IMG/VR virus record: IMGVR_UViG_3300035698_000694
Location: 1-21,088 of that record
Source: a virus
DNA length: 21,088 nt
Direction: 5' to 3' (one strand)
Shown: in pieces, positions 1,132 through 20,364 of the stretch
Layout: each line of letters opens with the position of its first letter
Numbering within the stretch: position 1 is the first letter of the stretch
The notes under the pieces: generated by a model
Databases searched by the model: none
What the model was told of the DNA's origin: nothing
Seen by the model: the letters and a program-made list of their open reading frames with translations, nothing else
Position numbers and translations under genes: made by a program

Positions 1132-1824
1132 TTAGTCCTTTTTTAATGTAGAAGTCACTATATTTTCTGAATTCGCTTTTAATGCCCTTAAAATAAAATA
1201 TGCGTCGAAAATATCATCAAGCGGCTTAGGTATCTTTTCACTAAAGTCCTTTCCTTGAGTCCATTTCCAAAGTTTAGTTGATCTTAAGTTCTTATCATTA
1301 AGGACATCATCTTGGAATGCTTTAGCCATATAATGTTTGTTTGCATTTCCTTTACCTGCTAATTTCTTTACATGAGATGGTTGAAACACAGATAGATTCT
1401 CTATAGAGTACTTATCTATTAGTTCCTTTCTTAAAAATGTATTGTATTGGATAATGTCTATAAATGAATTCCCTTTGGATCCATACGAGAAACCTTCTAG
1501 TGCAACTGATACTTCATCACCTTCGAATAGTGTAGAAAAAATGTTAACCATTAATGAGCTAATATTACCAGCATCTTCTAATTTCTGTCGCTCCCTGGGT
1601 AAAAACTCTTTGCTTGTTACATCTCTATTATATGGAAATCCTAGCATTGCAGAATCATCCATTAGTTCTTTATGTACACTAAACGATTTTGGTATCTTTC
1701 TACCTTCCTCATCCCATATACGATTCCCATAATTAAAAAAAGTTATGAAGTGGTATTTCCCATCAGCAGTTTCAACACATACACCAGGGCTATTGAGTGA
1801 AAAGTCAATTCCTATATTAATCAT
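1132..1824 (-). CDS. RuvC-like Holliday-junction resolvase (RNase H fold)
   Basis: This 230-residue protein shows the RuvC/RNase H-fold acidic set. D7 lies in the first strand (INIGIDFSLNSPG), E110 in VSVALEGFSYGSKGN, and D203/D204 with D207 in DDIFDAYFILRAL. The segment PSHVKKLAGKGNANKHYMAKA (149-169) matches the RuvC pattern of P-x-x-V-K-K followed by G-x-G-x-A-x-K. RuvC family enzymes are metal-dependent and cut four-way DNA junctions. In a phage this would resolve recombination or replication branches before packaging, the job endonuclease VII (gp49) does in T4. It is somewhat longer than bacterial RuvC, with extra sequence around 30-90 and 175-200. It starts 5 nt after the stop of the capsid-targeted protein gene, so the two are probably co-transcribed. 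Fold assignment is strong; substrate is inferred. Confidence 0.82.
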   Translation of the reverse strand: MINIGIDFSLNSPGVCVETADGKYHFITFFNYGNRIWDEEGRKIPKSFSVHKELMDDSAMLGFPYNRDVTSKEFLPRERQKLEDAGNISSLMVNIFSTLFEGDEVSVALEGFSYGSKGNSFIDIIQYNTFLRKELIDKYSIENLSVFQPSHVKKLAGKGNANKHYMAKAFQDDVLNDKNLRSTKLWKWTQGKDFSEKIPKPLDDIFDAYFILRALKANSENIVTSTLKKD

Positions 1825-1829
1825 ATTGT

Positions 1830-2186
1830 TTATATTCTCTTACCAAGTACTGCGCCTAAGGCAGCACCAACAAGACGTGAAGTCATTAAATCATATAAAG
1901 CACCCTTTTCAATACCTAGGACTCTGGCAATTGCTTTACCCATAGTTTTACCTAAAGCAAAACCAGTAAGACCACCAAATATACTTCCCAAGATACCTTC
2001 ATTTATTATTTCTTCTACTACAGCTTCTAAATCTTTACCATTTTTATGTTCTTCCATAATTCTATCAACTGCAATATCAATCGCGGCATCCTGTTCTTCT
2101 GTTAAAGTATGGGATTCATTTAGTAAGTTTTGTATATCTACACCACCATCGTGAGATTCTGTTAAATAGTCTTTAAAGGTTTTCAT
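1830..2186 (-). CDS. Putative capsid-targeted internal protein with glycine-zipper C terminus
   Basis: I do not recognise a named family for this 118-residue protein, but its layout is telling. The N terminus MKTFKDYLTE closely resembles the capsid-targeting sequence of T4 internal proteins (IPIII: MKTYQEFIAE). It ends in L-x-E before a small residue, as T4 gp21 prohead protease requires. Three such sites are visible: LTE10/S11, LNE24/S25 and INE63/G64. Residues 27-62 are acidic and helical. Residues 64-118 are hydrophobic and glycine-rich: G67, G71, G75, G79 and G83 form an unbroken GxxxG series, and G107, G111 and G115 a second. Such glycine zippers pack membrane helices. Cleavage at E63 would free this 55-residue segment. 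It could be a prohead core protein or an injected membrane-active peptide. A TAATATATA box lies 19 nt upstream of the start. Confidence 0.6.
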   Translation of the reverse strand: MKTFKDYLTESHDGGVDIQNLLNESHTLTEEQDAAIDIAVDRIMEEHKNGKDLEAVVEEIINEGILGSIFGGLTGFALGKTMGKAIARVLGIEKGALYDLMTSRLVGAALGAVLGKRI

Positions 2187-2205: not shown

Positions 2206-2214
2206 TATATATTA
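2206..2214 (-). promoter_or_regulatory. Candidate promoter box TAATATATA before capsid-targeted protein gene
   Basis: The minus strand reads CCTAATATATAAACAAATAAAG, with the TAA being the stop codon of the tail-tube-like gene. The box ends 19 nt before the ATG at 2186. It differs by one base from the GAATATATA boxes at 1120-1128 and 13598-13606. This is a weak call based on spacing and recurrence. Confidence 0.28.
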
Positions 2215-2766
2215 GGCAACGTTAACTACGACATCTAAGATGTTATACGTGAATTCTAAATCAAAAGTTTGAAATTCAACTGTATTACTCGAGAAGTTTA
2301 AATCTAATGCACCAATACTTTTTATAAACATGTCCTTCAGTTGGATTGTTACAAATACATTACCTTCAGCATCTAACATCTGTACACCTACCCCTTCTGG
2401 TAAATATGGGTCTTTGCCACTTAGCTTATAGTAGTAATTAAACATTTCAATAGCCATCCAATAATTAACATAACCATCAAATGCCTGCATTGTAACAGTT
2501 AGAGATTTATCAAATAGTTGCTGTGTAGGTATACTTGACCTAAATGATCGTGTATTACCTAAGTAGTCTGTTTGTGTTACTGGATCAAAAGATGGGCCAG
2601 GTAAATTAATAGACTGTATTCCATAGTTCCAATAATCAATAGGTTCTTTGATCAATCCACCTGGGATTCTTGTAAGAAATGGTTTATATTTCTCAGCAAT
2701 ATCCTTAGGAATAAAATTCCTTGGGAAGTCAAATTTAAATTGGTTATTTCTAGCGCTTAATATCAT
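2212..2766 (-). CDS. Tail-tube-like protein (T4 gp19 / baseplate tube superfamily)
   Basis: This 184-residue protein is slightly longer than T4 gp19 (163). The C-terminal part, MFIKSIGALDLNFSSNTVEFQTFDLEF, follows the gp19 pattern in which an 'I-x-G-x-x-P-x-x-V-G-E-L-x-L-D-W' strand precedes SNNEIQTFEV and a last hydrophobic strand. The middle part (FDKSLTVTMQAFDGYVNYWMAIEMFNYY) fits the strand-plus-helix of tube proteins. Tube proteins stack as hexamers inside the contractile sheath; baseplate proteins gp48 and gp54 share the fold, so this could be a tube initiator instead of the main tube protein. Its ATG overlaps the stop of the 277-residue gene (ATGA at 2763-2766), implying translational coupling. 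The assignment is by pattern, not overall similarity. Confidence 0.6.
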   Translation of the reverse strand: MILSARNNQFKFDFPRNFIPKDIAEKYKPFLTRIPGGLIKEPIDYWNYGIQSINLPGPSFDPVTQTDYLGNTRSFRSSIPTQQLFDKSLTVTMQAFDGYVNYWMAIEMFNYYYKLSGKDPYLPEGVGVQMLDAEGNVFVTIQLKDMFIKSIGALDLNFSSNTVEFQTFDLEFTYNILDVVVNVA

Positions 2767-17600: not shown

Positions 17601-19705
17601 ACTACATCATATACGAAATTCAATACTCCCTGCTCTGTGCAAATCAAATCAATGATTGGGATATTGCTTAAATCAATATTTTGTATAGTTGCTATTAGTT
17701 TACCGTATGAGCCACTGTTTAATCTACTTGGTGCATCGGTGTATACATTTATATTTCTTGATCCTATAAGTGGAACATTATTAAATGTTAACCTCATAGT
17801 TTGACCAGTTCTCCATGGAGTACCAGTATCATTTACATAAATATTAAGATCACCACCTGCTTGGTTGATTGTATCTAATCGTAACATATTAGTATATGTA
17901 CCTAAGTCAGTATATACCCCTGGGTTTACTACATTTAAGTTCAATGGATTCGTTGCTGATATTTGTACACTATTAATATCTAACGGAACCATTAGGTTAT
18001 ATGCTTGTACATTACTTGATACTTGTATCTTGTTCGGTGTGTTTGTATTAATTGTGATTCCTGTTCCTTGCTGTACTACCGCTGTGTTATATTGTAGTGT
18101 AGTTGTAACATCCCCATTTGCTAATGCTTGGATCTCGTCTGAGTTTTTAGCAATAAGATCTAGTAATGTAGTACTGCTTGCAAAGGCTAATGACGCATTA
18201 TCAACTTTAGTATTTAATGTTGTAATTTGTGATTGTAAGAATGCTGAAGTACTAACAGAATTTAAAGTATTTTCTACGGCTGCCAATCTAATTTCCAAAT
18301 CAGCAATCTCTAGCTGTTGTCTTTGGAATATTTGAGCAGATGCTTGTAACTGAGCAGACGCATCAGAGAAAAGACCCATTGAAAAAGTATTATAATCATT
18401 TACGATAGTATCAATACCTGCAGTTCCAGGCGAAGCATCAAATCGTAAATTAATTTTAAACCCATAACTATTACCATTTTGGCCTGTTGTTGCATTAGGT
18501 TTATATTTTGGATATCTTTGAATATAACCACCATCAGTTGTTGGTGTTACATTATCTAATAATAAAATACCATATAAGTTAGTAGTTGTTTTAGATGAAT
18601 CGCTCATGTCGACCATATCATAATAAACTAACACTGCATTAAATTCAAATGACTGCGCTAAGTTACTACCATTAAATTGTGGTATTGTGCTTATTGTCGA
18701 ATCAAGTGCAATCTGTTGATAATCGTTAGGATTAAAATCTACACTGATCCCATCCAATTCACTTCTTACGTAAGCAGAGCCATTATAACCTGTAGGGCTA
18801 CCATAATCAGCAGGATATTTTTGTATATTAGCATTAAGTACACTTGTGAACGTGTTAGGTTCTGTAAAATATGCATCTGTAGTTGACGGTGGTGTTGGCT
18901 CATCCATCCAGTTTGCATCTGAATCAGTGTAACCTGCAGGACCAGGTCCTAATAGTGGTTGATCATAATCATAGAATGCCTTTATATCTAAACCTTGCGG
19001 GTGTATCGTTGCAGAATTTCTTCCAAGTATAAACTCACTTGTTCCTTGGATTTTTAGTGATGGTTGATAATTCGTATCAGATATAGAACTAAAGAGTATT
19101 GTAGGTGTTCTACCCACTTCTGTTGGTACATTAATATACAATTCAGTATAAGCTTCTCCTGCTTTATCTACATTATTTACAATATCAATTTCACCAATGT
19201 ATTTTACTACTCTTCTATATTGGCGTGTACCTGATGTTACTTCATCTTCCTCACAAAAACGTGGGGTAGTTAAACCGCTAACCTTTTCCAGTATAGTAGC
19301 TTCTCGAAACCTCATAGCTCCACATTCTTTTAACCATTTAAAAAATACTCGCTCAGTAACTGTTAAATTTGTAGTGTTATCATACCCTACATCACTTATA
19401 ATAAGCTCCTCTAAATTTAATGCATAATTCTGAAGGCTCTCGGTAAAGTTAACATTAGGGTCACCTTTTAGGCCACCGTTTGCTATAGCACCATCAATTG
19501 TATCAAACTGCATATAGTTTTGATAATTGCTAAATGTTGTGGGATCCAATCTATCAAAATCTGGTAGGTTAAGAAGCACAAACTTAGAAAAGACTAATTT
19601 AAGATCATCATTATTGAGTGTCCTAGATAAGTCTTTTGCAGAAGAAGAGAACGTATAAAAAGTTCCCCCGTTTGCTTGCGGTGTTTTAATTAAGGGTGTT
19701 GTCAT
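17594..19705 (-). CDS. Virion structural protein with central coiled coil (703 residues)
   Basis: The 703-residue product begins LIKTPQANGGTFYTFSSSAKDLSRTLNND, followed by a segment of mixed fold to about residue 250 (for example RVFFKWLKECGAMRF and RRVVKYIGEIDIVNN). It continues with a Pro/Tyr/Asn-rich middle. A coiled coil is likely at about 455-530 (QRQQLEIADLEIRLAAVENTL and the QITTLNTKVDN stretch). The last ~140 residues are beta-rich and include RTGQTMRLTFNN near 635, a motif also seen near the C termini of both fibre-like proteins. This suggests an elongated trimeric protein with a C-terminal beta head, perhaps a baseplate-attached short fibre or wedge component. Its ATG overlaps the stop of the GIY-YIG gene (ATGA at 19702-19705). 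No enzyme motif was found and the exact role is unknown. Confidence 0.57.
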   Translation of the reverse strand: MTTPLIKTPQANGGTFYTFSSSAKDLSRTLNNDDLKLVFSKFVLLNLPDFDRLDPTTFSNYQNYMQFDTIDGAIANGGLKGDPNVNFTESLQNYALNLEELIISDVGYDNTTNLTVTERVFFKWLKECGAMRFREATILEKVSGLTTPRFCEEDEVTSGTRQYRRVVKYIGEIDIVNNVDKAGEAYTELYINVPTEVGRTPTILFSSISDTNYQPSLKIQGTSEFILGRNSATIHPQGLDIKAFYDYDQPLLGPGPAGYTDSDANWMDEPTPPSTTDAYFTEPNTFTSVLNANIQKYPADYGSPTGYNGSAYVRSELDGISVDFNPNDYQQIALDSTISTIPQFNGSNLAQSFEFNAVLVYYDMVDMSDSSKTTTNLYGILLLDNVTPTTDGGYIQRYPKYKPNATTGQNGNSYGFKINLRFDASPGTAGIDTIVNDYNTFSMGLFSDASAQLQASAQIFQRQQLEIADLEIRLAAVENTLNSVSTSAFLQSQITTLNTKVDNASLAFASSTTLLDLIAKNSDEIQALANGDVTTTLQYNTAVVQQGTGITINTNTPNKIQVSSNVQAYNLMVPLDINSVQISATNPLNLNVVNPGVYTDLGTYTNMLRLDTINQAGGDLNIYVNDTGTPWRTGQTMRLTFNNVPLIGSRNINVYTDAPSRLNSGSYGKLIATIQNIDLSNIPIIDLICTEQGVLNFVYDVVK

Positions 19706-19713
19706 ACTATACT
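19702..19713. repeat. Direct repeat copy at the 3' boundary of the GIY-YIG gene
   Basis: The plus strand reads TCATACTATACT; the matching copy at 20379-20390 reads TTATACTATAGT (10 of 12 identical). On the coding strand this is AGT ATA GTA TGA, the last codons of the endonuclease, and it includes the ATG of the 703-residue gene. Confidence 0.5.
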
Positions 19714-20364
19714 ATTCTTTTGTTTACAATTATCATTATGAAATCTACTATACACATTTATACTAACGTCTTTATTACAGTAAGGGCATTCCTTTCTCTT
19801 ATGTTTCATTCCAAATGAAGGTGCAAAGTTACCGATACGTTTTTTTCTAGATGTTGACATCTTCTTTTTTGTCTCTTCTGAATGAAGCATTCCTATATGA
19901 GCTACTGATAGTTTAAGTTTACAAGTTCCGGTTAATTTCTTCCCTAAATTCGCATTTCTTAATTTTTGTCTAGTTTCTTTTGAAACAAGTCGCCCTTTTA
20001 ATGATTCAGATATTTTTGCTTTAGTTTCCCTCGATAATTTTGTACCAGTAGGATCATATCGGAATTTATTTATTGTTTGTCTTGATCTATTATAGAATAT
20101 TGGATTTTTATCTACTTCATATTCATTATGTAAATTAGATTCATGTATATCAGCGTCTTCTCGCGATGTAAAGGTTTTAAAAATATCATATTTATAATTA
20201 CTTGGCTTTTCTTTTTGGTCAATTATAAATTCTTTATCTGATGAACTTGAAAAATAAAGTTTACCTAAATCATCACTAGGATTTAATATAGTTTCTCTTG
20301 AACCTATATATTTTTTACCGTTCACCAAGTTTATTATACAATATGTATAGTAATTCTTTTTCAT
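19702..20364 (-). CDS. GIY-YIG homing endonuclease with NUMOD3 repeats and C-terminal zinc finger
   Basis: The 220-residue product has a GIY-YIG domain at its N terminus. Y8 and Y19-I20-G21 form the signature, R23 follows, and E75 in DADIHESNLH is the likely catalytic Glu; NPIFYNRSRQT closes the domain. Residues about 107-175 carry NUMOD3-type basic repeats (LSRETKAKISESLKG, VSKETRQKLRNANLGK, HSEETKKKM). The C terminus has a probable zinc finger with C193, C196, H209 and C213 (CPYC then FHNDNC), seen in other phage homing endonucleases. It is free-standing between two structural genes, with its stop overlapping the next start. Near-identical 12-nt sequences lie at both of its boundaries, which I read as an insertion footprint. 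It looks intact. It probably cuts endonuclease-free alleles of the neighbouring virion genes. Confidence 0.9.
   Translation of the reverse strand: MKKNYYTYCIINLVNGKKYIGSRETILNPSDDLGKLYFSSSSDKEFIIDQKEKPSNYKYDIFKTFTSREDADIHESNLHNEYEVDKNPIFYNRSRQTINKFRYDPTGTKLSRETKAKISESLKGRLVSKETRQKLRNANLGKKLTGTCKLKLSVAHIGMLHSEETKKKMSTSRKKRIGNFAPSFGMKHKRKECPYCNKDVSINVYSRFHNDNCKQKNSIV

Follow-up and report, generated by a model that had tools for sequence, protein, structure and literature searches.

The window (the whole stretch of DNA analyzed, 21,088 nucleotides) encodes a 118-aa glycine-zipper protein that is probably an internal head protein, targeted to the capsid and trimmed by a protease to yield a basic hairpin with the glycine zipper. 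Judged from sequence, a probability of roughly 0.72–0.75 was assigned to this reading. The leader, the predicted cut sites, the protease, their conservation and the core status of the gene were read directly from the sequences of the window and its relatives.

Architecture, distribution and genomic context of the zipper gene

The initial annotation had described a gene with residues numbered up to 118 at this place. The frame was confirmed, while its strand had to be corrected to minus (Table 1). The leader MKTFKDYLTE at the N terminus, the sites LTE10/S11, LNE24/S25 and INE63/G64 and the glycines G67, G71, G75, G79, G83, G107, G111 and G115 were all found where they had been described. In comparison, the description of the C-terminal part as 55 hydrophobic residues was overstated, since residues 64–118 hold nine charged residues (K80, K84, R88, E93, K94, D99, R104, K116 and R117; net charge +5).

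Table 1. Features of the zipper gene and its neighbors in the window.
Feature	Positions	Strand	Basis
118-aa glycine-zipper protein gene	1830..2186	minus	whole ORF, ATG start, stop 1830-1832
Residues 1–10 MKTFKDYLTE, capsid-targeting-type leader, predicted cut E10/S11 at its end	2157..2186	minus	T4 IP leaders and entropy minima
Residues 11–24, disordered linker up to predicted cut LLNE24/S25	2115..2156	minus	pLDDT and homologue counts
Residues 25–63, acidic helical segment up to N62-E63/G64, possible third cut	1998..2114	minus	AF2, homologues
Residues 64–118, predicted basic glycine-zipper helical hairpin, lysine ladder K80/K84/K-R88	1833..1997	minus	AF2, homologues
Tail tube gene, adjoins upstream	2212..2766	minus	phrog_45 E=9e-9
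RuvC-like resolvase gene, adjoins downstream	1132..1824	minus	phrog_159 E=2e-10

Shuffling the whole protein gave at least three (L/I)-x-E-(S/G) sites in 0.5% of cases, with 0.38 sites expected on average, and shuffling residues 64–118 gave a run of five glycines at i+4 spacing in 0.7%. Conservation among homologues is a stronger test of the sites and glycines than these shuffle statistics. The 118-aa protein is real, and its dN/dS of 0.10–0.20 in nine pairs with relatives indicates purifying selection. IMG/VR contained 144–160 relatives near the window, and a scan with the zipper protein of a second subclade as query returned 190, giving more than 300 in total from two sets that may partly overlap. 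Among annotated phage records searched by tblastn, LR756500 (462 kb) holds a homologue (49% identity), and the genomes of fifteen Lak megaphages match at about 40% identity over residues 41–115; no match was found beyond these. Neither cultivated phages nor annotated families yielded a homologue, and one scan of genome contigs returned no cellular or prophage homologues. The phages carrying the gene are a large, mostly uncultivated group of T4-related giant phages from marine and gut sources, Lak relatives included. Among IMG/VR contigs with relatives of the LR756500 protease, the zipper gene was present in 7/7 protease-bearing contigs longer than 80 kb; by this distribution it is core to the group.

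Conservation was counted over 83 distinct homologues. In the leader, F4 was kept in 82, Y7 in 78, L8 in 74 (I or M also occurring) and E10 in 78, with A at position 10 in a few homologues. E24 was kept in 80, the P3 position of its site being L, I or V in 82, and E63 and G64 were invariant (83/83 each). G71, G79, G111 and G115 were likewise invariant, and G67, G75 and G83 were each present in 82/83. Alongside the glycine face, the lysine ladder K80/K84/K-R88 was kept in 80–82 of the 83 sequences. Lak homologues showed a partial zipper register only (G replaced by S, T or M). Thus, the leader, the E24 and E63-G64 sites and the glycine register were retained among the homologues, and the initial proposal withstood this comparison.

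AlphaFold2 (AF2) predicted for the full protein (mean pLDDT 69) a leader helix, disorder over residues 11–25 (pLDDT below 50 at 11–16 and 18–25), an acidic part with helices 30–48 and 53–62, and the hairpin. Residues 64–118 alone were predicted with helices 65–90 and 104–117 at a mean pLDDT of 80. Mean charge among the homologues was −13.7 for leader plus propeptide and +5.6 for the C-terminal part. With a 19-residue Kyte-Doolittle mean of at least 1.6 as the transmembrane threshold, segment 64–118 reached it in 0/83 homologues (best means 1.18–1.57). Pfam and PHROG returned sub-threshold matches only, among them Gly-zipper_Omp PF13488 (16.1 vs a curated cut-off of 25 bits) and Rick_17kDa_Anti PF05433 (14.8 vs 24.2). 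A PDB sequence search gave nothing below E=0.5; matches to prion proteins were rejected because of their glycine/alanine-rich composition. A fold search of PDB and BFVD gave no significant match, and the literature yielded no account of a phage virion protein with a glycine zipper.

The tail tube gene lay at most 1.2 kb upstream of the zipper gene in 134/145 testable loci. The 11 exceptions were one Lak locus and ten loci with about 1.3 kb of extra sequence between the two genes (L226, L229, L233, L234, L236, L238, L243, L267, L275 and L277). A RuvC gene was found at most 1.5 kb downstream in 155/161 testable loci, the six exceptions being L090/L091, Lak and three scoring artefacts. Two homing-type endonucleases (GIY-YIG/NUMOD3) are encoded amid virion genes of the window, at 547-1101 and 19702-20364.

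Leader, predicted processing sites and prohead protease

The likeness of the leader to T4 capsid-targeting sequences, noted in the initial annotation, was borne out by the positions conserved among the homologues. In the T4 record AF158101, IPII and IPIII begin with MKTYQEFIAE and IPI with MKTFKEF. The first ten residues of T4 IPIII suffice, and mutagenesis assigned targeting mainly to residues 4 and 7 and processing to residues 8 and 10 (PMC9026906). In the 83 homologues, entropy at positions 4, 7, 8 and 10 was 0.09, 0.42, 0.73 and 0.41 bits, while positions 5, 6, 9 and 11 were free (1.88, 1.76, 2.39 and 2.52 bits). The same four positions were still conserved when the set was reduced to 32 sequences sharing less than 85% identity. 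Since these are the targeting and processing residues of T4 IPIII, the pattern supports packaging into the head and trimming. The zipper homologues of L090/L091 lack this leader, although neighboring genes carry leaders. Lak homologues have a different leader, yet L8-F-E10/G11 is retained.

Lack of a gp21-type protease would have counted against the initial proposal, but one was found in the window's own clade: G059, a contig of 181 kb, carries both the protease and the zipper gene. The window, a fragment of 21 kb, contains no protease. The gene order in G059 is portal, S77 domain fused to a helical scaffold-like part, and capsid protein. The S77 domain was confirmed by Pfam (E=3e-14), and the catalytic residues of T4 gp21, H85 and S140, are retained. 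Peptidase_S77 also scored above the Pfam cut-off in LR756500, whose protease has 473 IMG/VR relatives, and in two Lak phages; in Lak, protease and zipper gene are about 4.4 kb apart. The first 38 marine contigs yielded no S77 protease, since protease and zipper gene are about 30–55 kb apart; longer contigs resolved this. At G059 18182-19903 and L087:31-1929, the S77 domain was observed with a long helical scaffold-like C-terminal part containing many repeated short motifs.

Of 52 capsid proteins near these proteases, 50 have an L-x-E site at the junction of the N domain. Window-like MCPs carry LNE/S there, the same four residues as at E24/S25 of the zipper protein. The E10 and E24 sites match the consensus in most homologues. 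For E63/G64, proposed initially as a gp21-type site, the picture was mixed: the E-G pair is invariant, with Glu at P1 in 83/83, while the canonical L/I-x-E was weakened, P3 being I or L in 31/83, V in 13 and T in 39. With Thr at P3 in so many homologues, E63 may either be cut under a relaxed P3 requirement or form a structural turn.

Further leaders were sought and found on unrelated proteins of related phages. Of 190 N termini in G051, a related contig of 166 kb, 18 carried the strict leader motif, mostly in the form MKHIKLFEQFINE, compared with 2 of 811 internal Met windows (p=7e-12). Pooled over five contigs, the enrichment had p=3e-11; G059 alone, with five strict N termini, gave a weak signal (p=0.06). 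Known domains were recognized in 2/10 scanned leader bearers (CTP_transf_like and HD). By this occurrence, the leader is a module common to unrelated proteins.

Proposed role, alternatives and known systems

From these features, we infer packaging, cleavage, ejection and membrane insertion in four steps. First, residues 1–10 would act as a capsid-targeting sequence and bring the precursor into the prohead core. Second, a gp21-type (S77) protease would cut on the C-terminal side of E10, E24 and possibly E63, removing the acidic leader and leaving a small basic product that comprises at least residues 25–118, perhaps only the 55-residue hairpin. Third, this basic product would remain in the head with the DNA. 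Fourth, it would exit along with the genome and, through the glycine faces, enter the inner membrane of the host or oligomerise there, aiding genome entry. Membrane action at infection is the likeliest of the roles considered, slightly ahead of a structural one, yet can be proposed tentatively only, since the segment is moderately hydrophobic, basic and below the usual transmembrane threshold and half of the homologues deviate from the canonical L/I-x-E at E63. The bolder version, in which an ejected pore-forming glycine-zipper peptide stored in the head builds or seals the inner-membrane passage in phages of the T4 lineage, is rather unlikely; if true, contractile-tailed phages would possess a head-derived membrane component replacing the tape measure protein or acting beside it.

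Superinfection exclusion, one of the roles suggested in the initial annotation, fits poorly with a gene found in every long protease-bearing contig. T4 internal proteins with counter-defence or exclusion roles vary among phages (PMC9026906; PMC3012670). Thus, the core status of the zipper gene speaks against host-specific functions in counter-defence or exclusion, and a role in genome entry or head assembly fits better.

The hairpin could also serve within the head, with no membrane role, as a core or DNA-associated structural peptide like the T4 gp67, gp68 and IPIII products. It would then pack in the head, bind DNA or core proteins and aid assembly or condensation, the glycines serving helix packing only. 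The net charge of +5 to +6 with the conserved lysine ladder, the hydropathy under the transmembrane threshold in all homologues and the core conservation of the gene are consistent with this, and T4 offers precedents: IP lysines contact DNA (PMC3012670), and head assembly is slower without IPIII (PMC9026906). However, a hydrophobic first helix half (65–79) with five i+4 glycines would be unusual for a DNA-binding peptide, and the explanation is considered somewhat unlikely.

The invariant E63-G64 between core helix and hairpin would also suit a prohead membrane tether, in which the zipper holds the initiation complex in the inner membrane, with the leader taking part in the core, and the cut at E63 helps to release the head. 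Membrane attachment and protease-linked release of proheads have been described: T4 heads start at the inner membrane via gp20/YidC and come off once gp21 has carried out its proteolysis (PMC9026906), and SPN3US proheads without protease remain on the membrane (PMC9026906; PMC10052503). However, as the site of protease action is the prohead interior, an anchor outside would have to pass the portal, and the hydropathy of the zipper segment is weak; a tether is improbable.

If leader and L-x-E sites were coincidental, the protein would be an unprocessed small membrane protein, e.g., a holin-like or superinfection-exclusion factor, as the weak sub-threshold matches to Gly-zipper_Omp and Rick_17kDa_Anti might suggest. 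This is quite improbable, as strict conservation is restricted to targeting and processing positions, and the protease, the matching MCP site, the leader bank and the position of a core gene in a structural block speak against it. That the protein belongs to the tail or neck and is made together with the tail tube, its leader resemblance being secondary, is conceivable from the adjacency of the tail tube gene in every non-Lak group, but is highly improbable given that the leader conservation pattern, the leader banks and the L-x-E sites indicate the head core and that the Lak zipper gene lies near the S77 protease instead.

As a probable trimmed internal head protein, the zipper protein is like T4 IPI, IPII and IPIII in its ten-residue leader pattern, its predicted L/I-x-E cut site, its predicted basic product and the S77 protease of its phage group. 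It differs in that no similarity was seen past the leader, where the T4 proteins have a soluble fold and the zipper protein a predicted glycine-zipper hairpin, and in that the T4 genes are variable accessory genes, whereas the zipper gene is a conserved core gene with extra internal sites. With T4 gp67 and gp68 it shares a small charge-segregated precursor, several L/I-x-E sites and a virion block near the tail tube or portal gene; these have no zipper, and no similarity was seen, the T4 sequences being compared by reading only. The gene order is tube-portal-67-68-21 in T4 and tube-zipper-RuvC here. P22 gp7/16/20 and the SPN3US E proteins resemble the proposed route, i.e., storage in the head, exit with the genome and action on the envelope. 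However, they are far larger, no homology was found, and ejection here is only proposed. PF13488 and PF05433 share a hydrophobic helix with glycines regularly spaced at i+4 but are envelope protein families rather than phage head proteins, and the matches lie below their curated cut-offs. The front end would thus work like that of a T4 internal protein, and the predicted product resembles nothing annotated.

On the preferred reading, the T4 capsid-targeting and prohead-protease system would extend to giant phages from marine and gut sources, a large group including Lak relatives, with a readable leader for predicting head cargo. Unlike the variable T4 internal proteins, one cargo with a membrane-like motif would be universally conserved, so that inner-membrane crossing by such phages becomes testable.

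Candidate cargo and glycine-rich neighbors in related phages

The leader bank of G051 (IMGVR_UViG_3300035135_002398) lies at 66117-74349, 122280-126859 and 136929-145772. It encodes about 16 proteins with leaders of the MKHIKLFEQFINE type, including the cytidylyltransferase-like and HD-domain proteins, all candidate head cargo in this contig alone. Runs of small genes were observed directly after the zipper homologue at L090:10321-13438 and L091:10198-13051, most of them with MKSLxxYLxE or similar N termini.

Glycine-rich stretches after L-x-E-type sites were also noticed in neighboring proteins. In LR756500 (L082:12380-13231), a 283-aa ORF between the zipper gene and RuvC contains LEE/G followed by a basic glycine-rich stretch. 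In Lak (L083:10527-11777 and L084:10539-11792), the opposite-strand neighbor of the zipper gene encodes a helical protein with ALNE/LFGFG and a hydrophobic glycine-rich stretch. Finally, a 513-aa protein with a leader-like N terminus is encoded next to the capsid gene at L193:257-1798 (G051 40257-41798, minus strand). It carries LITE/A, followed by a glycine/alanine-rich hydrophobic stretch (LIAAGVVGGAAVGITVLIKK), and is possibly a second packaged membrane-type protein.
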